Source: Pseudomonadota bacterium (lineage in GTDB: Bacteria > Pseudomonadota > Gammaproteobacteria > Burkholderiales > Burkholderiaceae_C). Taken from it: a DNA stretch of 64,000 nt. The DNA lies in NCBI GenBank assembly GCA_021799355.1, contig JAJZAQ010000012.1:1-64000 (forward strand), in the 5' to 3' direction. Numbering within the stretch: the stretch's first letter is position 1; each line of letters begins with the position of its first letter. A program made the position numbers and the translations under genes. Shown piece after piece: positions 2,660 through 55,524 of the stretch. Under the pieces are notes generated by a model. It was not told the origin of the DNA and did no database searches. It worked only from the letters and a program-made list of their open reading frames with translations.

Positions 2660-4102
2660 CTACCGTGCCGCCGACGCCCCCGGCAGCGGCCCGATCGCCG
2701 GGCGGTCGTCCTCCCCCCATCCACCTCCCAGCGCCTGGATCAGCGCCACACTCGCTGCATACCGGCGGTTGAGCAGGGTGAGCTGCGCGTTGCGCGCGCT
2801 GGTCAGGGTGGTCTGCGCGGTGATGACGTTCAGATAGGGCGCGGTGCCGGCCTTGTACTGGTTCTGCGCCAGCCGCAGCGACACCTCGGCAGCCTCCACC
2901 ACCGCCGCCTGCTGCTGCGCCTCCTGCGCCAGGATGCGCTGCGCAGCGAGGTTGTTTTCCACCTGCTGCAGCGCCGTCAGCACGCTTTGGCGGTAGGTGG
3001 CCACGGTCTGGCGGTAGGCCGCCTTACTGCTTTCCACCTGGGCGCGGCGCAGCCCGCCGTCGAACAGCGTGGCCGCGAGTTGCGGGCCGAGCGACCAGAA
3101 CAGCGACGGCGCGGAAAACAGCCCGGCCAGCTGGCCCGCCTGGCTGCCGCCCTGCGCCGAGAGCGTGAGGTTGGGGAACCACGCGGTCTGCGCCACGCCG
3201 ATCTGCGCGTTGGCTGCCGCCACCTGCGCCTGCGCCGCAGCCAGATCGGGGCGGCGTTGCAGCAGCTGCGCCGGGATGCCGGCGGGAATGTCCGGCACGG
3301 CGGGCAGCACCCCGGTGTCGGGCAGGGTGAACGCTGCCGGCGCCTGGCCGACGAGCACGGCGATGGCGTTCTGCAGCTGCGCGCGGGTCACGCCCAGATC
3401 GGTCAGGCTGGTCTGCGCCTGCAGCAGCTGGGTGCGCGCCTGCGCCACGTCGGCAGCGGTGTCCACCCCGGCCTTGTAGCGGTTTTCGGTGAGCTGCAGC
3501 GCGCGTTCGTAGGCCGCCACGGTGTCGCGCGCGAGCCGGATCTGCGCGTCGACGGTGCGCAGTTGCAGATAGCTGCTGGCCAGCGTGGCCTGCAGGCTGA
3601 GCTGGGTGTTGGCCAGGGTGGCGGCGCTGGCGGCGGCGGTGGCCTGCCCGGCCTGCACCTGCAGCCGCACCCTGCCCCACAGATCGGGCTCCCAGCTTGC
3701 GCCCAGCGAGACGCTGAGGTTGTTGCCTACGGCGCCGCTGCCCGCCGTGCGTGCGCGGCTGGCCGCGGCCCCGGCGGTGACTGCGGGATAGTAGGCCGCC
3801 TGCGCCTGGGCGACTGCGGCCTGCGCCTGCTCATAGGCGGCGAGCTGCGCGGCCAGGCTCTGGTTGTGCTGCGCCACCTGGTTTTCCAGGCCGGCCAGCA
3901 CCGGGTCGTCGAACACGCTCCACCACGCGCCGCGCGGTGTGGCCGCCAGCGCCTGCGCCGGGGCCCAGTCGCCCTGCGCCTGGGCGTAGCTTGCGGGCAG
4001 GGCGATGGTCACGGCCGGCTCGGGCGGGTTGGCGGCGCAGGCGGCCAGCAGCAGCGCCAGCGGCGCGGCGAACAACAGGCGGGACGGGACGGTCGGGTTC
4101 AT
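2660..4102 (-). CDS. RND efflux outer membrane factor, NodT-type lipoprotein
   Basis: lipobox LLLAACA; OEP repeats; next to RND genes. Confidence 0.9.
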   Translation of the reverse strand: MNPTVPSRLLFAAPLALLLAACAANPPEPAVTIALPASYAQAQGDWAPAQALAATPRGAWWSVFDDPVLAGLENQVAQHNQSLAAQLAAYEQAQAAVAQAQAAYYPAVTAGAAASRARTAGSGAVGNNLSVSLGASWEPDLWGRVRLQVQAGQATAAASAATLANTQLSLQATLASSYLQLRTVDAQIRLARDTVAAYERALQLTENRYKAGVDTAADVAQARTQLLQAQTSLTDLGVTRAQLQNAIAVLVGQAPAAFTLPDTGVLPAVPDIPAGIPAQLLQRRPDLAAAQAQVAAANAQIGVAQTAWFPNLTLSAQGGSQAGQLAGLFSAPSLFWSLGPQLAATLFDGGLRRAQVESSKAAYRQTVATYRQSVLTALQQVENNLAAQRILAQEAQQQAAVVEAAEVSLRLAQNQYKAGTAPYLNVITAQTTLTSARNAQLTLLNRRYAASVALIQALGGGWGEDDRPAIGPLPGASAAR

Positions 4103-45405: not shown

Positions 45406-45912
45406 ATGAAAAGCAACGCGTTGAGCAAAAAACAACTGCAACAGGGCTTCACCCTGATCGAGCTGATGATCGTCGTGGCGATCATCGGCATTCTGGCGGC
45501 GATCGCGATTCCGGCGTATCAGGATTACACGATTCGGGCGCAGGTATCGGAAGGTATGTCGCTGGCAGATGGGGCGAAGACCGCAATTGCTGAGTATTAC
45601 ACTAACCATGGAACTTGGCCCACAAACAACAGCGCGGCTGGTTTGGCATCGCCACAATCTATTACGGGCAAATATGTGGCAACGGTGACCGTTGGACAAG
45701 GAACCAATGGCGGAGGAGCGATCACCGTTTGCTACGGATCAAGCTGTTCTAATGCGGTGTCCCCTGCCGGCGCTGGTGCCAACGCCAACATCAATGGGGA
45801 CACCATTCAGCTTCTCGCTACTTCTCAAGGCGGATCCATTGTTTGGACCTGCGGACCCGGCACTTCAAACCCTGTGCCCAAGAAATATCTTCCCACTTCT
45901 TGCCAAGGCTAA
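45406..45912 (+). CDS. Type IV major pilin-like protein 2
   Basis: [54 protein letters not shown]. Confidence 0.95.
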
Positions 45913-45970
45913 AGCAAATAATGGGGTCAGGTCTAGAGCAAACGGGGTCAGGTCTAGCCTCATAGCATCC
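45913..45970 (+). repeat. REP-like element R1, two copies of GGGGTCAGGTCTAG head
   Basis: AGCAAATAATGGGGTCAGGTCTAG then AGCAAACGGGGTCAGGTCTAGCCTCATAGCATCC. Confidence 0.85.
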
Positions 45971-45989
45971 CGCCCTATTACCCTACCGA

Positions 45990-46012
45990 AACCCGCCGCA
46001 AGGCGGGTTTTT
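45990..46012 (+). terminator. Hairpin AACCCGCC-GCAA-GGCGGGTT+T5
   Basis: 8-bp GC-rich stem plus T tract. Confidence 0.8.
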
Positions 46013-46136
46013 CATTTTCGGGCTTCACTCAAGCCCCCCTCGGTCGAGACACGCGCTTCGCTCGTCTCGCCAAGCCGTGCGCCCCGGCCTAAAATTGGCC
46101 TTCGCGGTTTCACTTCATTTTGGGCGGGCGGTCAAC

Positions 46137-46334
46137 ATGACTGACAACATCGACAACCTCATCTTGGAACACCTCAAGCGGTTCCAGGCCGGGCAGGAAC
46201 GCATCGAACGCGAACTCCGCGAGATCAAGGCCCGGCTTTCCACGCTGGAGGCCGGGCAGGGCTCGGTGTTGCAGCACATCGGGCATCTGACGAGTTCGAT
46301 CGCGGGACAAATGAGATCAGGTCTAGCTCCATAG
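46137..46334 (+). CDS. Short coiled-coil protein, C-terminus and stop supplied by a REP-like repeat
   Basis: MTDNIDNLILEHLKRFQAGQERIERELREIKARLSTLEAGQ...AGQMRSGLAP*; last codons lie in the repeat. Confidence 0.6.
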   Translation: MTDNIDNLILEHLKRFQAGQERIERELREIKARLSTLEAGQGSVLQHIGHLTSSIAGQMRSGLAP

Positions 46335-46339
46335 CATCC
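46315..46339 (+). repeat. REP-like element R2 (diverged head)
   Basis: GATCAGGTCTAGCTCCATAGCATCC. Confidence 0.8.
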
Positions 46340-46359
46340 TGACCTCTTGTCCCCACCGA

Positions 46360-46382
46360 AACCCGCCGCGAGGCGGGTTTTT
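46360..46382 (+). terminator. Hairpin AACCCGCC-GCGA-GGCGGGTT+T5
   Basis: same hairpin as after R1. Confidence 0.8.
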
Positions 46383-46591
46383 CATTTGTCGGATTTCGCC
46401 CAATCTCCCGTCGCCACGACACTGAAGGGACGCGAGGTCCGTGTGTTTTTGCGGTGTGCACGCCGATCAGGACGCGATGGCGAATTTTTCGTCATCGGCG
46501 AGCAGCCGATGGGTCTCTCACCCGGCTTATCGACCGATCCACGATCAGAGTATGATGCGTGATGATTGATGCTTGATGTTCAAGAGCCGCT

Positions 46592-46819
46592 ATGCGAACC
46601 ACTTTGTCCATCGATGATGACGTGCTCGGCGCGGCCCGCGAGCTGGCGGTGCGGCAGCACAAGAGTGTGGGTGAAGTGCTGTCGGCACTGGCGCGACAGG
46701 CGCTGCAGCGGCAGCCGCCGTTGGCTGAGCGCAACGGGGTGCCGCTGCTGGCGCCACACGCCGAGGCCAGGCCCGTGACGCTGGAGATCGTCAATCAGCT
46801 CCGCGATGAGCTGCCATGA
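46592..46819 (+). CDS. RHH-type antitoxin (VapB-like)
   Basis: MRTTLSIDDDVLGAARELAVRQHKSVGEVLSALARQALQ; overlaps PIN gene. Confidence 0.85.
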   Translation: MRTTLSIDDDVLGAARELAVRQHKSVGEVLSALARQALQRQPPLAERNGVPLLAPHAEARPVTLEIVNQLRDELP

Positions 46820-47247
46820 CGGCCTACCTGCTCGACGTGAACGTGCTGATTGCGCTGGTCGATCCGGCGCATGTGCAGCACGACGCTGCGCACGACTGGT
46901 TCGCCCGCACCGGCCGCGCCGCCTGGGCGACCTGTCCGCTGACTGAAAACGGTCTGCTGCGCATCCTCAGTCATCCGCGCTACCCCAACCCTGCCGCCAC
47001 GCCGGCCGCGGTGGCCAGCGTGCTGCAAGGGCTGCGGGCGCTGCCAGGACACCGCTTCTGGCCGGATGACATCACGCTGCTCGACCCGGCATGGATTCAG
47101 GCCGACCGCCTGCTCAGCCACGCTCAGGTGACTGACAGCTACCTGCTGGCGTTGGCCGTGCGCCACGGCGGCAAACTGGCCAGCCTCGACCGCAAGCTCG
47201 TGACCGACGCGGTGGTGAACGGGCGGCAGGCGCTGGAATTGATCTAA
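46816..47247 (+). CDS. PIN-domain toxin (VapC family)
   Basis: MTAYLLDVNVLIALVDPAHVQHDAAHDWF...TDSYLLALAVRHGGKLASLDRKL. Confidence 0.9.
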   Translation: MTAYLLDVNVLIALVDPAHVQHDAAHDWFARTGRAAWATCPLTENGLLRILSHPRYPNPAATPAAVASVLQGLRALPGHRFWPDDITLLDPAWIQADRLLSHAQVTDSYLLALAVRHGGKLASLDRKLVTDAVVNGRQALELI

Positions 47248-47303
47248 AGGGGGTCATCTAAAGGGGGTCTCTAAAGGGGGTCAGGTCTAGCCTCATAGCA
47301 TCC
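47244..47303 (+). repeat. REP-like element R3 preceded by three CTAAAGGGGGTC copies
   Basis: CTAAAGGGGGTC at 47244, 47258 and 47271, then GGGGTCAGGTCTAGCCTCATAGCATCC from 47277. Confidence 0.88.
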
Positions 47304-47317
47304 AGTTTTCCCACCAC

Positions 47318-47340
47318 AACCCGCCGCAAGGCGGGTTTTT
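47318..47340 (+). terminator. Hairpin AACCCGCC-GCAA-GGCGGGTT+T5
   Basis: same hairpin as after R1 and R2. Confidence 0.8.
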
Positions 47341-47456
47341 GTTGTCCGGGTGGAACGACAGAGGGGATCGGCCTACTCCGCGCCACGCCAGGCTGGTGCC
47401 CAATCCCGTTGCAAGGCGGGGTGCAGCAAGAAGCGGTTTGACGCAGTTCCCTACCG

Positions 47457-47472
47457 TTGGCAGAATTGCCAA
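47457..47472. promoter_or_regulatory. Palindrome TTGGCA-GAAT-TGCCAA next to TumE start
   Basis: 6-bp perfect arms, 1 nt before ATG. Confidence 0.5.
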
Positions 47473-47473
47473 C

Positions 47474-47761
47474 ATGAAGGCCGAACTCGTGATGCGGTTT
47501 CGTCATCTGCTGAGTCAAGGCGGTCTGGTCGAGATGGTCGTCTGGCGCCTGCCACATCCGGTACCGCCCAGCACCCACGCGTTCAAATACCGCCTGGTCT
47601 ATGTGGTCAATGGCGAGCGGGTGATCGGTTTCGACAATGAACGGGGAAAAGGCGACCACATGCACATTGGCACAAAGGAATTTCCGCACCAGTTCGTGGA
47701 TGTCGATCGCCTGATCGATGATTTTCAACGCGAGGTGGAAACATGGAACAACGCACGCTAA
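47474..47761 (+). CDS. TumE-like (DUF6516) toxin
   Basis: LVEMVVWRLPHPVPPSTHAFKYRLVYVVNGERVIGFDNERGKGDHMHIG. Confidence 0.82.
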   Translation: MKAELVMRFRHLLSQGGLVEMVVWRLPHPVPPSTHAFKYRLVYVVNGERVIGFDNERGKGDHMHIGTKEFPHQFVDVDRLIDDFQREVETWNNAR

Positions 47762-48102
47762 CCGTCACGGTTGGCCCTCAAGGCTGGTCGGATCTGCGCC
47801 AGGCCGCGCGCGCCGGCTTCGCCGCAGATCATTACCTGGGGGAATTTCTCAATTTCGAGACGCCCGCGCTGTTTTTCAGCCGCATGACCGCCAAGCGGTG
47901 GGACATTGTGCGCACGTTGCAAGGCGCGGGTGAAATGTCTGTCCGGGAACTTGCGCGCCGCGTTGGGCGCGATGTCAGGCGTGTGCATGAGGATGTCAGC
48001 GCGCTCACGGAATTGGGGCTACTGGAACGCACCCCGCGTGGAGGAGTCGTCAGCCCTTACGCAGACATTCATGTCGATCTGCATATCCGGCAGGCAGCGT
48101 AG
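47743..48102 (+). CDS. TumA-like HTH antitoxin
   Basis: FFSRMTAKRWDIVRTLQGAGEMSVRELARRVGRDVRRVHEDVSALTELGLLER. Confidence 0.82.
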   Translation: MEQRTLTVTVGPQGWSDLRQAARAGFAADHYLGEFLNFETPALFFSRMTAKRWDIVRTLQGAGEMSVRELARRVGRDVRRVHEDVSALTELGLLERTPRGGVVSPYADIHVDLHIRQAA

Positions 48103-48149
48103 TGATCGGGGTCACAGTGATCGGGGTCAGGTCTAGCCCCATATCACTA
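48102..48149 (+). repeat. REP-like element R4 with duplicated GTGATCGGGGTCA junction
   Basis: GTGATCGGGGTCA at 48102 and 48117, then GGTCTAGCCCCATATCAC; degenerate hairpin follows. Confidence 0.8.
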
Positions 48150-48269
48150 GTCCAGACCCGCTGTGAGGCTGGTTTTGTTCCACTGCTGTATTCAGTGGGT
48201 CGGGCCTGAGCACCTCTGGCCCGACCGGAGTAGGGTTTCATGCCGTGCCTTTGACAAGGCGCCGACACC

Positions 48270-48290
48270 AGCATAGGCTCGGCCTATGCT
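48270..48290. promoter_or_regulatory. Palindrome AGCATAGGC-TCG-GCCTATGCT, putative VapBC operator
   Basis: 9-bp perfect arms, 24 nt upstream of antitoxin ATG. Confidence 0.6.
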
Positions 48291-48314
48291 TGCAATTGAG
48301 TTGATGTGCCTTTT

Positions 48315-48557
48315 ATGAATCCGCCTGAACGACACATCCGCCTATTCCGCAACGGCCGCAATCAGGCTTTACGCATTCCACGCGAGTTCGAGTTGCCGGG
48401 CAACACAGCCATCATGCGCCGCGAGGGGAATCGCCTCATCATCGAGCCAGTTCCAGCGAAGGGGCTGCTGAGGGTGTTGCGCGACCTACCCGAAGTGGAC
48501 GAGGCCTTTCCCGATGTGGATGCCGGTCTGGCACCGCTAGACGACGTCAGGCTGTGA
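48315..48557 (+). CDS. vapB: AbrB-type antitoxin (VapB)
   Basis: HIRLFRNGRNQALRIPREFELPGNTAIMRREGNRLIIEPVP. Confidence 0.9.
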   Translation: MNPPERHIRLFRNGRNQALRIPREFELPGNTAIMRREGNRLIIEPVPAKGLLRVLRDLPEVDEAFPDVDAGLAPLDDVRL

Positions 48558-48964
48558 TAGACGAACCCCGCTATCTGCTGGACACCAACGTGCTGTCCGA
48601 TCTGGTGCGCCGGCCGCGAGGACTCGTCGCTCAAGCCATCGCGCGGGTGGGTGAGGCGCGGGTCTGTACGTCGGTGGTGGTCAGCGCCGAGCTGCGGTTT
48701 GGCGCGGCAAAGAGCCAGTCTCGTCGCTTGTCCGAGCAGGTGGAGGCGATTCTGTCCGCTTTGGACATCCTGCCCCTGCAACCCCCAGTCGACGCGCACT
48801 ACGTGCGGATTCGCGCTGCGCTGGAGCGAGACGGCAAACCCATCGGCCCCAACGATCTGTTGATCGCCGCGCATGCGCTCAGCGAGAACCTGACCTTGGT
48901 GACAGCCAATGTGGCGGAGTTCTCCCGCGTGGAAGGTCTGCGCGTGGAAAACTGGCTACGCTAA
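48554..48964 (+). CDS. vapC: VapC PIN-domain toxin (GTG start)
   Basis: RYLLDTNVLSDLVRRPRGLVAQ...GPNDLLIAAHALSENLTLVTANVAEFSRVEGL. Confidence 0.93.
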   Translation: MIDEPRYLLDTNVLSDLVRRPRGLVAQAIARVGEARVCTSVVVSAELRFGAAKSQSRRLSEQVEAILSALDILPLQPPVDAHYVRIRAALERDGKPIGPNDLLIAAHALSENLTLVTANVAEFSRVEGLRVENWLR

Positions 48965-48978
48965 GGGGGGCACTAAAG

Positions 48979-49890
48979 GGGGTCAGGTCTAGCCTCGAAG
49001 CATCCTCCTGGCTACACTGCGGCGCATGTCCCGTCCTTTGCGCCTCGAATTCCCGCACGCTCTGTATCACGTCACCGCCCGCGGTGACCGGCGGGAAGCG
49101 ATTTACGAAGACGACGCCGACCGGCGGCTGTTCCTGGACATCCTCGGCGAGGCCGTGGCGGACTTCAACTGGCTGCTGCACGCCTACTGCCTGATGACCA
49201 ACCACTACCACCTGCTGCTGGAAACGCCCGACGGCAATCTGTCGGCGGGCATGCGCCAGCTCAACGGGGTGTACACCCAGCGCAGCAACCGCCGCCACGG
49301 CCGCGTCGGCCACGTGTTTCAGGGGCGGTACAAGGCGATTCTGGTCGATCGCGAGAGTTACCTGCTCGAAGTGGCGCGCTATGTCGTGCTCAACCCGGTG
49401 CGCGCCGGCATGGTCAGGCAGGCGCAGGACTGGCCGTGGAGCAGCTACCGCGCGACGGTCGGCTTGGACACGCCGCCGCGCTGGCTGGCCACCGATGCGC
49501 TGCTGGCTGCTTTCGGCCCCGACCGCAGCCAGGCCGTGCCGCGCTACGCGCAGTTCGTCGCCGAGGGCGTGAAGGCGCCAGCGCTGTGGGACAAGCTGCA
49601 GGGCCAGGTGTATCTGGGTGACGCCGCGTTCGTGCAGCGCATGCTGGCAAAAGTCGAGAAGGCTCCTGACCTGCAGGTGCCACAGGCGCAGCGCCGCGCC
49701 CCGCCGGAACCGCTGGCGGCCATCGCCGCGCGCTTCACCGACCGCGAAGCCGCCATCGTCGCCGCCCACGCCAGTGGGCACTACAGCTACACCGAGATTG
49801 CCGAGCATTTCGGCCTGCACTTCACCACGGTCGGCCGCATCGTGCGCCGCGCCAAATCGCGGCGCATGCTATGAAGCTAGACCTGACCCC
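48979..49890 (+). mobile_element. REPtron-like unit: RAYT gene bracketed by inverted REP-like elements R5 (48979-49005) and R6 (49867-49890)
   Basis: left GGGGTCAGGTCTAGCCTCGAAGCATCC; right TGCTATGAAGCTAGACCTGACCCC; TnpA_REP ORF between. Confidence 0.8.
49026..49874 (+). CDS. REP-associated tyrosine transposase (RAYT, IS200-like Y1)
   Basis: MSRPLRLEFPHALYHVTARGDRREAIYEDDADRRLFLDIL...AYCLMTNHYHLLLETPDGNLSAGMRQLNGVYTQRSNRRHGRVGHVFQGRYKAILVD. Confidence 0.94.
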   Translation: MSRPLRLEFPHALYHVTARGDRREAIYEDDADRRLFLDILGEAVADFNWLLHAYCLMTNHYHLLLETPDGNLSAGMRQLNGVYTQRSNRRHGRVGHVFQGRYKAILVDRESYLLEVARYVVLNPVRAGMVRQAQDWPWSSYRATVGLDTPPRWLATDALLAAFGPDRSQAVPRYAQFVAEGVKAPALWDKLQGQVYLGDAAFVQRMLAKVEKAPDLQVPQAQRRAPPEPLAAIAARFTDREAAIVAAHASGHYSYTEIAEHFGLHFTTVGRIVRRAKSRRML

Positions 49891-51970
49891 AAGGTTTTTG
49901 ACCCCAAGGTTTTTTCTTCTTCTTTTCATCGCCATCCTCATTCTGGCGCTGTTGGCCTACTGGCCCGGGCTGGCCGGCGGGTATGTGTTCGACGATTTCG
50001 GTAACCTGGTCGACAACCCGGCGTTCGCGCCGGCAGCGCTGCACGCGCAGGGGTTCTGGCATGCGGTGTGGAGCACGCACGCCGGGCCGCTGGACCGGCC
50101 GCTGGCGATGGCGAGTTTTGCCGCGCAGGCGTGGTTCACCGGGCTGAACCCGTGGCCGCTGAAGCTGGTCAACGTGCTGATCCACCTGCTCAACGGCGTG
50201 CTGATCTGGCTGCTATCGCTGCGGGTGCTGCGCTGGCTGGCCGCGCGCGGGCAGGGGCCGCGGTTGGTCGGCGCCGAGACGCTGGCGCTGCTGGTGGCCG
50301 CCGCCTGGGTGCTGGCGCCGATTCAACTCACCGCGGTGCTGTACGTGATCCAGCGCGAGGAGTCGCTCACGGCCACGCTCGTTCTGCTTGGACTGCTGGC
50401 GTACTGGCACGGCCGCATGCGGCTGATCGCCGGACGGCGTGGTGCGCTCGCCTGGCTGTGGGGTAGCCTGGCGCTGGGCACGCTGCTCGCGGCACTGGCG
50501 AAGGAAACCGGGGTGATGCTGCCAGCCTACGCCTTTGTGCTGGAGTGGGTGGTGCTGCGCGGGCAGCTGCGGACAAGCGCGGACACGGCGGCGCTGCTCG
50601 GCGCCGCGCCAGCCACCGACGCTTCCCCGCGGCGCGGCAACCCGCTGCTGCCGCTGTTTGCCGTGCTGCTGGTGCTGCCGGGAGCGCTGGGGCTGGCGTG
50701 GATGCTGCCGGGGGTGCTGAACGGCTCGGCCTACGCCGCGCGGCCGTTCACACTGGGCGAGCGACTGCTCACCGAAGGGCGGGTGATGGTGGATTACCTG
50801 CGCTGGATTCTGCTGCCCACGCCCGATGCCCTCTCGCTCTACCACGACGATGTGCGAGTGTCTACCGGCTGGCTGCAGCCGTGGACGACGACGGCGAGCT
50901 GGGCGCTGCTGGCGGCGCTGCTGACCTCCGCGGTCTTGGGCTGGCGGCGCTGGCCGGTGTGGTCGCTCGGGGTGCTGTGGTTTTTTGCCGGGCAGTCGCT
51001 GGTGTCGACCTTCGTGCCGCTGGAGCTGGTGTACGAGCACCGCAACTACCTACCGAGCTGGGGGGTGTTCGTCTCGGCGTTTTGGCTGCTCACCGCGTGG
51101 TCGCCGCCGGATGCGCAACGCCGCGGCACACTGCGGCTGCTGGTGGTCGGCGGGCTGGCCGGGCTGATCGCGCTGCAGGGTTTTTTCACCTTCCTGCGCG
51201 CGCAGGTGTGGGGGAATCCGTACCGGCTGGCGTACTTCGAGGCGACGACACACCCCGAGTCGCCGCGCGCCAGCTATGACCTGGGCCGGATGCTGCTGGT
51301 GATGTCCAAAGGCACCGAAAGCGTGCAGTTCCAGATGGGCATGCGGCAGATGGAGCAGGCCGCGCGCCTGCCTGGCTCCGACCTGCAGCCGCTGCAGGCG
51401 TTGGTGTTCATGGCGGCGAAAAACGGCCTGCCGATTTCCCAGCGCTGGTGGGAGGAGATGCGACACGTCATCGCCACCACGCCAATGAGCGCCGAGAGCG
51501 TCGGCTCGCTTTACAGCCTGATTCAGTGCGGCATCAACGGCGTGTGCCGCTACACCCCGGCGCAGCGCCAGGCGCTGGGCGAGGTCATCGCCTATGCGGT
51601 GCAACGCAACCCAGGTCGCGCCAACCTCGTCACCCTGCAGGCGAACTGGGCGGCGAACATCGCGCACGACAACCCGCTGGCCTACCAGCTGATGCTGCGC
51701 GCCGTCGCGCTCGACCCCGGCAAATACGCCTACTGGAAAAACCTGTTCGACATCCAACTCGCCGCCGGGCTGTATGGCGACGCGGCGAACGTGTTGGAGC
51801 GCATGCGCGAGCTGGACCGCTTTGGCATCCACCGAGAGGAAATCGCGCGGCTCGCTGCCGAGCTGAAGAAGCGCGAGCGCACCGCTGCTGCACAGCCGGC
51901 AGCCACCGCGCCGGGCTCGCCGCCCGCGGAGCCGCGCAACGCAACCCGCGCACCGGAGGCCGCGCGATGA
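49871..51970 (+). CDS. GT-C-like polytopic membrane protein with C-terminal repeat region (paralog 1); N-terminus REP-encoded
   Basis: MKLDLTPRFLTPRFFLLL...YWPGLAGGYVFDDFGNLVDNPAF; multi-TM; FDD in first loop. Confidence 0.75.
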   Translation: MKLDLTPRFLTPRFFLLLFIAILILALLAYWPGLAGGYVFDDFGNLVDNPAFAPAALHAQGFWHAVWSTHAGPLDRPLAMASFAAQAWFTGLNPWPLKLVNVLIHLLNGVLIWLLSLRVLRWLAARGQGPRLVGAETLALLVAAAWVLAPIQLTAVLYVIQREESLTATLVLLGLLAYWHGRMRLIAGRRGALAWLWGSLALGTLLAALAKETGVMLPAYAFVLEWVVLRGQLRTSADTAALLGAAPATDASPRRGNPLLPLFAVLLVLPGALGLAWMLPGVLNGSAYAARPFTLGERLLTEGRVMVDYLRWILLPTPDALSLYHDDVRVSTGWLQPWTTTASWALLAALLTSAVLGWRRWPVWSLGVLWFFAGQSLVSTFVPLELVYEHRNYLPSWGVFVSAFWLLTAWSPPDAQRRGTLRLLVVGGLAGLIALQGFFTFLRAQVWGNPYRLAYFEATTHPESPRASYDLGRMLLVMSKGTESVQFQMGMRQMEQAARLPGSDLQPLQALVFMAAKNGLPISQRWWEEMRHVIATTPMSAESVGSLYSLIQCGINGVCRYTPAQRQALGEVIAYAVQRNPGRANLVTLQANWAANIAHDNPLAYQLMLRAVALDPGKYAYWKNLFDIQLAAGLYGDAANVLERMRELDRFGIHREEIARLAAELKKRERTAAAQPAATAPGSPPAEPRNATRAPEAAR

Positions 51971-54015
51971 GCCGGGGCCAAACCACCACCCGCCGCTGGC
52001 TGCCGTTCGTGGCGTTTGCCGCGCTGCTGGCCGTGGCCTGGCTGGCGTACTGGCCGGGGCGCAACGGCGCGTTCCTGTTCGACGATTTTTCCAACCTCGC
52101 GCCGCTGGGCGACTACGGCCGTATCGACACGTGGTGGAAGGTCGTGGCGTTTCTCACCTCGGGCTTTGCCGGGCCGACCGGGCGGCCACTGGCGCTGGCG
52201 ACCTTTTTGCTCGACGCGCGCGACTGGCCGGCATCGCCCGAGGCGTTCAAGCTGACGAATGTCGCGATCCACCTGCTCAACGGCGCGCTGCTCGCCGGGC
52301 TGTGCGCGGCGCTGGCAAGGGCGCTCGGGCTAGCGCGCCAGTCGGCGCGCTGGGCCGCGGTGATCGCCGCCGGGCTGTGGCTGCTCGACCCGTTCTGGGT
52401 CAGCACCACGCTGTACGTGGTGCAGCGCATGGCGATGCTCGCCGCGACCTTCGTTTTCGCCGGGCTGTGGGGCTACGCGCACGGGCGCGCGCTGCTCGCC
52501 GCAGGCCGCCGCCGCGCGGGGTATGCGTGGATGAGCGCGTCGCTGCTGCTGGGCACATTGCTGGCCACTCTTTGCAAGGAAAACGGCGCGCTGCTGCCGC
52601 TGCTCGCGTGGGTGCTCGAAGCGCTGGTATTCGACCGCTGCCACATTGCGCGTGAAGTCGGCGGCCGCGCTTTCATCGTCTGGCGCTGGGTGTTCATCCG
52701 CCTGCCGGCTCTGGCGGTGCTGGGGTATCTGGCGACCTTCCTGCCCGGGCTGTGGACGGGCGCGACCGCCGGGCGCGACTTCACGCCGCTAGAGCGGCTG
52801 CTGACCGAAACGCGCATCGTCTGGGGGTATCTGGGTGACATCTGGCTGGCACGTAGCCACGACGGCGGTCTGTTCCACGACGACATCCGCATCTCCACCA
52901 GCCTGCTGCATCCGCCGTCGACGCTGCTGGCGGCGCTGGGCATCGTCGCGCTGGGGGTGTTCGCCATCGTCTCGCGGTGGGCGCGGCATCCGGTGGTGGC
53001 CGCGGCAGGCGTGGCGGTGGGGTTCTACCTCGCTGGGCAGGTGATGGAGTCGACCTGGCTGCAGCTCGAACTCGCGTTCGAGCACCGCAATTACCTGCCC
53101 GCTGGGCTGATGTTTTTGCCGGTGGGCATCGCCTTGGCGGGGGTCAGGTCTAGCCTTGTAGCAAACCCCGAGGATCATGCATCAAAGCTAGACCTGACCC
53201 CATGGAAAATCTGGGCAGCCGTCGTGCTGCTCGCACTGTTTGCGCTGCAAACCGCCCGCCGCGCCGACGTCTGGGGCAAGCCGTTCCAGCAGGCGCTGGT
53301 GTGGGCGCGCGAGCATCCGGACTCGCCGCGGGCGCAGAGCTATCTGGCGAATTTTTGGAGCGGCGTGGGCAACCAGCCCGAGGCCGCGCGGCTGCTCGAC
53401 GCGGCGCTGCAAAAGCATCCGCACAGTCTGATTCTGCTGATCAACCGCGCCGGCGTGGCCTGCAGCGAAGGCGACGCCCCGCCGGGTCTGCGCGCGGCGC
53501 TGCTGCATGCCGCGGCCACCGCACGGCTGGCCGACAACGTCACCCAGTACCAGTTCGGCAAGCTGCTCGACGGCACCGGGCAGTGCACCGCGCTGGGGCC
53601 TGATTTCACTGCCGACCTGCTCGCCGCCGCGCTGCGCAACCCGCAAAGCGCCCTCCCCGAAGTGCGGCGCGACCTGCTGCACCGCCAGGCGCTGGCGGCG
53701 CTGGCTGCGGGTGATGTGCAGCGTGCGTATGCGCTGGACCTGCAGGCGCTGCGCCTGCCGGGGCAGCCGGTAGGGGCGCGGCTGCGCTTTGCCGCGGAAA
53801 TCGCAGCCAGCGGCCATCCGCAGATCGCGCTGAATCTGCTCAACGCCATACCTTCGCCGCTGGCGCACATCCACGGTTGGGGCATGGCCGCGATGCACCA
53901 GCGGTGGCTGGCACACGTGGGCTTCTACCAGGAGAGCGAAGCGCATCTACGCCGGGTGCTGACCGCTGAAATCGCCGCGCAGCATCAACCCGGCAGCGGC
54001 GCTGCGGCACAATAG
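51967..54015 (+). CDS. GT-C-like polytopic membrane protein with C-terminal TPR-like region (paralog 2); contains in-frame REP insertion
   Basis: YWPGRNGAFLFDDFSNLAPL...FEHRNYLPAGLMFLPVGIALAGVRSSLVANPEDHASKLDLTPWKIW. Confidence 0.75.
   Translation: MSRGQTTTRRWLPFVAFAALLAVAWLAYWPGRNGAFLFDDFSNLAPLGDYGRIDTWWKVVAFLTSGFAGPTGRPLALATFLLDARDWPASPEAFKLTNVAIHLLNGALLAGLCAALARALGLARQSARWAAVIAAGLWLLDPFWVSTTLYVVQRMAMLAATFVFAGLWGYAHGRALLAAGRRRAGYAWMSASLLLGTLLATLCKENGALLPLLAWVLEALVFDRCHIAREVGGRAFIVWRWVFIRLPALAVLGYLATFLPGLWTGATAGRDFTPLERLLTETRIVWGYLGDIWLARSHDGGLFHDDIRISTSLLHPPSTLLAALGIVALGVFAIVSRWARHPVVAAAGVAVGFYLAGQVMESTWLQLELAFEHRNYLPAGLMFLPVGIALAGVRSSLVANPEDHASKLDLTPWKIWAAVVLLALFALQTARRADVWGKPFQQALVWAREHPDSPRAQSYLANFWSGVGNQPEAARLLDAALQKHPHSLILLINRAGVACSEGDAPPGLRAALLHAAATARLADNVTQYQFGKLLDGTGQCTALGPDFTADLLAAALRNPQSALPEVRRDLLHRQALAALAAGDVQRAYALDLQALRLPGQPVGARLRFAAEIAASGHPQIALNLLNAIPSPLAHIHGWGMAAMHQRWLAHVGFYQESEAHLRRVLTAEIAAQHQPGSGAAAQ
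53140..53201. repeat. 62-bp palindromic REP doublet R7 inside CDS
   Basis: GGGGTCAGGTCTAGCCTTGTAGCA - 14 nt - TGCATCAAAGCTAGACCTGACCCC. Confidence 0.9.
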
Positions 54016-54052: not shown

Positions 54053-54613
54053 ATGACCGCCGCGATCAAATTCGCCACCTACGACGACCTGCTCGCGCTG
54101 CCGGAGAACGTGGTCGGCGAAATCATCCACGGTAGCCTGCATACCCATCCGCGGCCACGGCCACGGCATGCTCTGGCCGAAACCGTGCTCGGCGGCGCGC
54201 TGAACTTGCCTTTCGGCCAGGGGCGCGACCGTGGCCCTGGCGGCTGGTGGATACTGGTCGAGCCCGAGCTGCATCTGGGCGCGGACGTGCTGGTACCCGA
54301 TCTGGCCGGCTGGCGGCGCGAGCGCCTGCCGCGCCTGCCCGATGCCGCCTGGTTCGAGCTTGCGCCGGACTGGGTGTGTGAAATCCTCTCCCCCGCCACC
54401 GCCCGCACCGACCGCGCGCTCAAACTGCCGTGCTACGCCACCGCAGGCGTGGCGCACTGCTGGCTGGTGGACCCCGACGCCCGCACGCTCGAAGCCTACG
54501 AAAACCAGTCCGGTCGCTGGCTGCTGCTGGGCGCTTGGGGCGGGGACGATATGGCGCGCATTGCGCCGTTCGACGCGGTCGAGCTGGGGTTGTCTGCGCT
54601 ATGGGCGGATTGA
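54053..54613 (+). CDS. Uma2 family (DUF820) protein
   Basis: ATYDDLLALPENVVGEIIHGSLHTHPRPRPRHALAETVL...VPDLAGWRRERLP...VCEILSPATARTDR. Confidence 0.88.
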   Translation: MTAAIKFATYDDLLALPENVVGEIIHGSLHTHPRPRPRHALAETVLGGALNLPFGQGRDRGPGGWWILVEPELHLGADVLVPDLAGWRRERLPRLPDAAWFELAPDWVCEILSPATARTDRALKLPCYATAGVAHCWLVDPDARTLEAYENQSGRWLLLGAWGGDDMARIAPFDAVELGLSALWAD

Positions 54614-55524
54614 TGGGCGGGGTCAGGTCTAGCCTTGTAGCAGACACGGCGGCCCATGCTACGAAGCTAGACCTGACCCCCAGTTTCATTCTGCCCGCGC
54701 GTAACGAGGCCGGTGCGGTCGGCCAGACGGTGCAGCGCATCCGCGCGCTGTACCCGCAGGCGCAGGTGATCGTGGTCGACGATGGCTCGACCGACGCCAC
54801 GGCGCAGATCGCCGAGCGCGCCGGCGCGACGGTCATCCGCCGCCCCTACGGCATGGGCAACGGCGCGGCGATCAAGGCGGGCGCGCGTGCGGCCAGCGGG
54901 GATGTGCTGGTGTTCATGGACGCCGACGGCCAGCATGACCCGGCCGACATCCCGCGTCTGCTGGCCAAGATCGCCGAGGGTTACGACATGGCGGTGGGCG
55001 CGCGGGTCAAGGGTTCGCAAGCCAGCGTGGGCCGCGGCATCGCCAACGGCCTGTACAACCGGCTGGCGAGTTGGATGACCCACCATCCGGTGCTCGACCT
55101 CACCAGCGGCTTCCGCGCCGCGCGCGCCGACCGATTCCGCGAGTTCCTCCACCTGCTGCCCAACGGCTTTTCCTACCCCACGACGTGCACGATGGCGTTT
55201 TTCCGCAGCGCCTACGCCGTGGCGTATGTGCCGATCACCGCGCACAAGCGCATCGGCAAAAGCCACATCCGCCCGCTGCGCGACGGCCTGCGCTTTCTGC
55301 TCATCATTTTCAAAATCGCCACCCTTTACTCGCCGCTGAAGCTGTTTGCGCCGGTGGCAGCCGGCTTCTTTCTGCTCGGGCTGGGCTGGTATGGCTACAC
55401 CTTCCACACCGAAGGGCGGTTCACCAATATGAGCGCGCTGCTGTTCAGCGCATCGGTGATCGTGTTTCTCATCGGACTGATCTCCGAGCAGATCACCAAC
55501 CTCACGTACAAGCGTGAAGAGTAA
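54613..55524 (+). CDS. GT2 family glycosyltransferase (DPM1/DPG-like) with REP-encoded N-terminal extension
   Basis: MGGVRSSLVADTAAHATKLDLTPSFILPARNEAGAVGQTVQRIRALYPQAQVIVVDDGSTDAT; two C-terminal TM; ATG overlaps Uma2 stop. Confidence 0.85.
   Translation: MGGVRSSLVADTAAHATKLDLTPSFILPARNEAGAVGQTVQRIRALYPQAQVIVVDDGSTDATAQIAERAGATVIRRPYGMGNGAAIKAGARAASGDVLVFMDADGQHDPADIPRLLAKIAEGYDMAVGARVKGSQASVGRGIANGLYNRLASWMTHHPVLDLTSGFRAARADRFREFLHLLPNGFSYPTTCTMAFFRSAYAVAYVPITAHKRIGKSHIRPLRDGLRFLLIIFKIATLYSPLKLFAPVAAGFFLLGLGWYGYTFHTEGRFTNMSALLFSASVIVFLIGLISEQITNLTYKREE
54619..54680. repeat. 62-bp palindromic REP doublet R8
   Basis: GGGGTCAGGTCTAGCCTTGTAGCA - 14 nt - TGCTACGAAGCTAGACCTGACCCC. Confidence 0.92.

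Follow-up and report, generated by a model that had tools for sequence, protein, structure and literature searches.

Palindromes sharing their arms with the inverted repeats of an adjacent TIRYT-type RAYT lie in frame at four orthologous coding sites in a Thiomonas-like genus

Palindromic repeats inserted in frame into protein-coding genes are known from the Rickettsia palindromic elements (RPEs; Ogata 2000), which are reviewed together with other MITEs in PMC2229807. In the available text of PMC3733652 (Di Nocera et al., 2013), intragenic GTAG and CGTC REPs are reported from many species, giving many "REP-decorated proteins", and in Xanthomonas recB two species have the repeats in roughly the same place. 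The same text splits off, as TIRYTs, those genes that are flanked by inverted repeats often bearing the motif GGGGWSAS, and reports that these inverted repeats occur as dimers elsewhere in genomes too. According to the available sections of PMC6006769, most TIRYTs fall in TnpAREP subclass 2.1 (RAYT group 1), with HTH tails, and one survey found no REP-like sequences near TIRYT-type RAYT genes. Additionally, REPINs (Bertels and Rainey 2011, PMC3116915) consist of two inverted units that form a hairpin and are associated with RAYTs.

The DNA analyzed here (the window, a stretch of 64,000 nucleotides) carries a 62-bp palindrome at 53140-53201 (+ strand), which encodes residues 392-412 of a protein that we call paralogue 2, GVRSSLVANPEDHASKLDLTP. 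Its arms (53140-53163 and 53178-53201) have 24 nt each, are 88% complementary and enclose a 14-nt loop, and the ORF at 51967-54015 stays open across them, reading GIALA-GVRSSLVANPEDHASKLDLTP-WKIW. Both the coordinates and arms and the ORF translation are identical to those of a preliminary description of this locus, which had placed a palindrome of this length, with these arms and loop, inside the paralogue 2 ORF and had found the frame open as GIALA-[sequence]-WKIW. As single-stranded DNA, the palindrome is predicted to fold at -20.3 kcal/mol (z = -8.05), with none of 200 shuffles being equally stable. The 24-nt halves alone reach -1.4 to -1.6 kcal/mol (z of -0.97 and -2.17), the strong fold being thus a property of the dimer only. 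With up to three mismatches allowed, the 15-mer of the arm occurs 13 times in the window versus 1.43 expected, and 0 of 100 shuffles reach 13.

The arms of the palindrome equal the inverted repeats that bound an adjacent REP-associated tyrosine transposase gene (RAYT; 49026-49874, + strand); the preliminary description had likewise linked the repeat to a RAYT. Its product, of the TIRYT type, combines a Y1_Tnp domain (PF01797, residues 13-120) with a C-terminal HTH (HTH_28, residues 243-276), and scores 84.5 bits against the NCBIfam model of REP-associated tyrosine transposases, NF047646, the cut-off of which is 80. The sequence GGGGTCAG, which fits GGGGWSAS, stands on either side of this ORF at 48979 (+) and 49890 (-). 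The left inverted repeat, with the arm GGGGTCAGGTCTAGC, spans 48979-48993 (+), and the right one, at 49876-49890 (-), doubles as the code for KLDLTP in the N-terminus of paralogue 1. The paralogue 1 gene (49871-51970, +) overlaps the RAYT stop codon with its start codon, and its first residues lie inside the right inverted repeat, reading M-KLDLTP in G000, G003, G007 and G010 and M-KPDLTP in G005. The arrangement of inverted repeats around the RAYT is the same in G003 and G010. The HTH tail and the TIR motif of the window RAYT agree with what the available text of PMC6006769 gives for TnpAREP subclass 2.1, or RAYT group 1.

Regarding the class of the element, the RAYT shows both the Y1 (HUH) tyrosine transposase with a C-terminal HTH and the GGGGWSAS-bearing terminal inverted repeats around the gene that define a TIRYT, and the palindrome is short and multi-copy and has its ends in common with this autonomous element, as expected of a MITE or a REPIN-like sequence. 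G000 contains eight full palindromes (62-64 bp) whose 12-base arm ends are exact and whose arms equal the RAYT TIRs. Moreover, in paralogue 2, a glycosyltransferase family 2 (GT2) gene, RlmL and CysN the palindrome is an in-frame insert in a conserved gene that is missing from orthologues, as in RPEs, which bears out the likeness to Rickettsia palindromic elements drawn in the preliminary description. The sequence at 53140-53201 is therefore best named a TIR dimer (MITE) of a TIRYT-type RAYT. The classic REP or GTAG-REP, in which each unit forms its own stem-loop tagged GTAG, was considered and rejected for this unit, since a single 24-nt arm has no fold of its own, the halves barely folding and the dimer alone folding strongly. 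Of the "local REP family" first proposed for the repeat, the multiple copies and the link to a RAYT stand, and the REP class gives way to that of a TIR dimer.

The locus thus shares with TIRtrons/TIRYTs, as described in the available text of PMC3733652 and PMC6006769, the Y1 transposase with its C-terminal HTH, the GGGGWSAS inverted repeats and the dimers elsewhere. It differs in that the TIR dimers are here in-frame coding sequence, whereas the intragenic survey in the available text of PMC3733652 covered GTAG and CGTC REPs. Like those intragenic REPs, the repeats are palindromic and lie in frame in genes; unlike them, the unit is a TIR dimer with non-folding halves, and four genes hold it, each at an orthologous site that up to five species share. 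RPEs are likewise palindromic, in-frame and tolerated in conserved genes, but those in PMC2229807 measure 105-146 bp and belong to obligate intracellular Rickettsia, whereas here the inserts have 50-73 bp and a linked RAYT. In contrast to REPINs, with which the hairpin of two inverted units and the RAYT association are common, neither half forms a hairpin alone here, and full copies number about a dozen per genome at most. The view that REPs are normally intergenic and that a RAYT-linked coding case would be unusual was too strong, given the many REP-decorated proteins in the available text of PMC3733652. In the open-access literature, including the available parts of these sources, we found no account of in-frame TIRYT-type TIR dimers or of their share among full copies per genus, nor of such inserts in the Thiomonas lineage, of their recurrence at the same sites or of species-specific versions there. 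Judged against this literature, in-frame mobile palindromes are already known, and what goes beyond the papers searched is the transposase type, the lineage and the recurrent use of the same coding sites.

Paralogue 2, the host gene (51967-54015, +), encodes a polytopic membrane protein of 682 aa whose C-terminal helices are TPR-like. Five same-genus orthologues share about 81% identity with it over full length and are stop-free, and the identities of the window gene to its orthologues at codon positions one, two and three (0.85-0.87, 0.88-0.90 and 0.59-0.64) follow the pattern of purifying selection. These intact orthologues and this codon-position pattern exclude a pseudogene, and the dead, otherwise disrupted gene raised as an alternative in the preliminary description is not what we see. 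In an AlphaFold model built from 25 sequences (mean pLDDT 84), residues 392-411 form a coil between helices 384-391 and 412-436, in accordance with the earlier placement of the palindrome in a loop between membrane helices. The only segments of the model with pLDDT below 50 lie in this coil and at the C-terminus. Similarly, in the model of RlmL from G008 the N-terminal tail 1-31, insert included, stays below pLDDT 50 and the first strand begins at 35. As modelled, the inserts in paralogue 2 and RlmL would fit tolerated, disordered segments. A sequence search of solved structures with paralogue 2 returned mainly TPR matches, and Foldseek gave nothing at E<=0.001, its weak matches including TPR proteins and the archaeal oligosaccharyltransferase 3wak.

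We scanned regions of 13 same-genus genomes (Thiomonas-like, the genus being assigned by inference), several of which are incomplete MAGs, for full palindromes. Thirty were found, to which one eroded copy (RlmL of G005) is added by alignment, and 17 of these 31 lie in frame at four orthologous sites, a number that is not to be read as 17 independent insertions. The inter-helix loop of paralogue 2 carries the palindrome in G000, G003, G005, G010 and G011; it is absent from this loop in G007 and in more distant relatives, whose genes are intact and have short, unrelated loops. The N-terminus of GT2 carries it in G000, G003, G007, G010 and G011, and is without it in G005 and in relatives. In the window, this second full palindrome (54619-54680, +; 62 bp) is in frame at the beginning of the GT2 gene (54613-55524, +), the likely start of which, ATG 54613, overlaps the stop of a Uma2-family gene (54053-54613, +) located between paralogue 2 and GT2; no ATG, GTG or TTG codon occurs from the repeat to the first strand, SFILPARNE. 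A third site is the linker of an RlmL-like methyltransferase, between the conserved MQSPYSSVYK and FDFFLPCPRG, with homologous coding sequence on both sides (present in G002, G003, G005, G007 and G008; absent in G000 and G006). Finally, G000 and G003 carry a 73-bp copy, in a different frame, right behind the start codon of CysN. The length added per protein is 17-21 residues, or about 25 in CysN. From the frame, the flanking homology and the lack of a downstream start, we infer that the palindrome inserts are translated.

The reading frames of the element are not equivalent. Among the three frames per strand of the 50-bp consensus, frame 1 alone is stop-free, and because of the symmetry of the palindrome both strands give nearly the same frame-1 peptide, GVRSS.VA..A.KLDLTP (GVRSSFVANASKLDLT and GVRSSFDAFATKLDLT). 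All 15 frame-1 coding copies measure 50 or 62 bp (2 mod 3), and copies at other sites 49, 50, 53, 60, 62, 63 or 64 bp. Frame 3 reads GQV-stop (GQV-TAG) and supplies the stop codon at several gene ends, namely those of RlmL in G000 and G002, of a membrane-protein ORF in G008 and of an acyltransferase-like ORF in G000. In these predicted genes, the arm, when read in its third frame, works as a translation stop. Stop codons supplied by the element were recorded at L182:5398-5853, L213:1944-3218, L232:2049-3356 and L217:1074-3032.

Between the paralogue 2 genes of G000, G003, G010 and G011, 0 of 30 arm bases are changed, the genes being 78-84% identical overall and 60-68% at third positions; at identities of 0.80-0.84 the chance of 30 unchanged bases would be 0.001-0.005 per pair, a rough figure since sites are unequal. 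The synonymous positions within the arms are kept as well, which selection at the protein level would not hold, and this argues for turnover at the DNA level. The RAYT is intact in G000, G003, G007, G010 and G011, and in G005 it is reduced to a 38-aa remnant. The G005 copies in paralogue 2 and RlmL have 11 and 18 of 50 bases changed, without frameshift, and 13 of 21 changed codons are non-synonymous. Together, arm conservation and the frame-preserving decay in G005 point, at the level of sequence comparison, toward turnover of the DNA and not selection on the peptide. The correlation between RAYT and arm quality is imperfect: the RlmL copy of G008, which gave no RAYT hit, has perfect arms, and that of G007, where a RAYT is present, has three arm changes. 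In the preliminary description, a peptide kept with divergent codons where no RAYT is nearby had been named as the observation that would speak against insertion. G005 comes close to this, with its RAYT remnant and retained insert; there, however, the peptide has drifted along with the DNA, as in a decayed insert and not a conserved peptide.

In this regard, we favor, and consider probable, a model in which the palindrome is a non-autonomous TIR-dimer MITE of the RAYT that passes in one frame in disordered sites, with recurrent occupancy. Two copies of the RAYT TIR would be joined head to head with a short loop between them, and the RAYT, as a single-strand HUH/Y1 transposase, would copy or move the palindrome, its catalysis being presumed. 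As each strand offers a single stop-free frame, insertion into a gene would in most cases disrupt it. Where a copy arrives in that frame, or is trimmed to it, within a disordered loop or N-terminal tail, it would persist and add 17-21 residues (about 25 in CysN, in another frame) with no evident use and presumably neutral. The sites would be occupied recurrently; while the RAYT is active the genome's own variant would be kept pristine or replaced, by a putative refresh or re-insertion step, and once the RAYT dies the insert would decay in frame. A bolder version, for which we claim only a tentative standing, is that the same few coding sites receive the TIR dimer of a TIRYT-type RAYT again and again, by re-insertion or refreshing, orthologues carrying each genome's current version. 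This would be a homing-like turnover inside proteins, the build of the palindrome letting one frame through and closing the others with stops.

A single old insertion per site, inherited vertically and with arms held identical because the hairpin is selected for a role in DNA or RNA (RAYT binding, mRNA structure), is in our judgment unlikely, although it deserves serious weight. The same four sites are used in several species with partly alignable flanks, and the GT2 copies of G007 and G010 are identical and orthologous. However, both the paralogue 2 and GT2 copies of G000 have 62 bp, whereas every other species has 50 bp at both sites, so that the G000 versions look exchanged or independently gained; the two copies of G011 are identical to each other. 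In the paralogue-2 tree, the repeat-free clade L063-L065 is nested between G000 and the other carriers, a topology that fits two gains as well as one gain with losses. From the 62-bp versions and the nested clade, an independent gain in G000 or a replacement in place seems likely, though not proven. As to a function of the hairpin, its decay in G005 within an intact gene indicates that it is dispensable there. A clean empty site at the nucleotide level, expected earlier as an indel of about 63 bp in related strains, was not found. The closest pair, G007 (without) and G010 (with), is 91.6% identical in nucleotides outside the loop and differs by loop replacement, not simple insertion; hence a target-site duplication is unreadable.

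Exaptation of the peptide as a useful protein segment seems highly improbable to us. It is kept in several species and in four unrelated genes, but the occurrence of the same peptide in unrelated genes speaks against such a use, as do its drift in G005 (with the mostly non-synonymous changes given above), its predicted disorder in AlphaFold and the intact orthologues that lack it. Nor do we give much credit to the possibility that the N-terminal cases are non-coding, with true starts downstream and intergenic repeats, a situation of which the available text of PMC3733652 warns for many N-terminal REPs. The paralogue 2 copy is internal, with conserved helices on either side, the RlmL copies sit between two conserved coding motifs, and the window GT2 has no alternative start between the repeat and its first strand. 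The TIR-dimer MITE of the RAYT remains our preferred reading, and it would extend in-frame palindromic inserts to the TIRYT-type RAYTs. The species compared here form a natural series, with the RAYT alive or dead and the insert pristine, decayed or absent at the same site, that bears on whether such inserts are neutral passengers, how the killing of genes is avoided and whether the transposase renews its copies in place. For annotation, tags resembling GVRSS..A.KLDLTP are to be expected as mobile-element peptides.

We limit the coding claim to the Thiomonas-like genus. Related palindromes, GGGGTCAGGTCTTG...CAAGACCTGACCCC, were seen at L162-L178 in other Burkholderiales families, with up to 23 per genome, and open frames of putative genes span some of the GGGGTCAGGTCTTG palindromes. 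In L064:8889-10850 and L065:3885-5852, the paralogue-2 loop is enlarged by different sequence, which in L064 holds the perfect palindrome CCTCCCCCACCGGTGGGGGAGG; on account of this palindrome, use of the site may not be confined to a single palindromic family. In addition, the paralogue 1 of G005 (L191:2786-5011) has a loop with a tandem coding repeat (TPSSPPLRSGGGREGHTQNRD), which apparently stems from another G+C-rich repeat family.

Single arms occur in the window as well. Half elements lie after the pilin gene (45944-45958, +) and in intergenic positions at 47277-47291 (+) and 48123-48137 (+), where the flank plus GGGGTC is tandemly duplicated (47246-47290 and 48102-48137, respectively). 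Downstream of the pilin gene, small gene modules line up across 45406-48980, one of them a MazE/PIN pair (48306-48964). Behind every module stands a single arm, GGGGTCAGGTCTAGC or a near-identical form of it; three of these modules are also trailed by a similar terminator-like hairpin (AACCCGCCGCAAGGCGGGTTTTT). The region looks like a cassette array with half elements as borders. Upstream of GGGG, A hardly ever occupies position -1, and AAT/AAC is favored by half elements, a target preference that amounts to a weak signal. Of 123 scanned arm ends, 23 show a tandem duplication of host flank plus GGGGTC, in units of about 11-40 bp and sometimes in frame within genes, with cases also at L226:1945-2006, in L225 near 3525-3574 and in L227 near 1943-2015. 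These duplications may have been left behind by insertion, or by slippage where the hairpin has its base.
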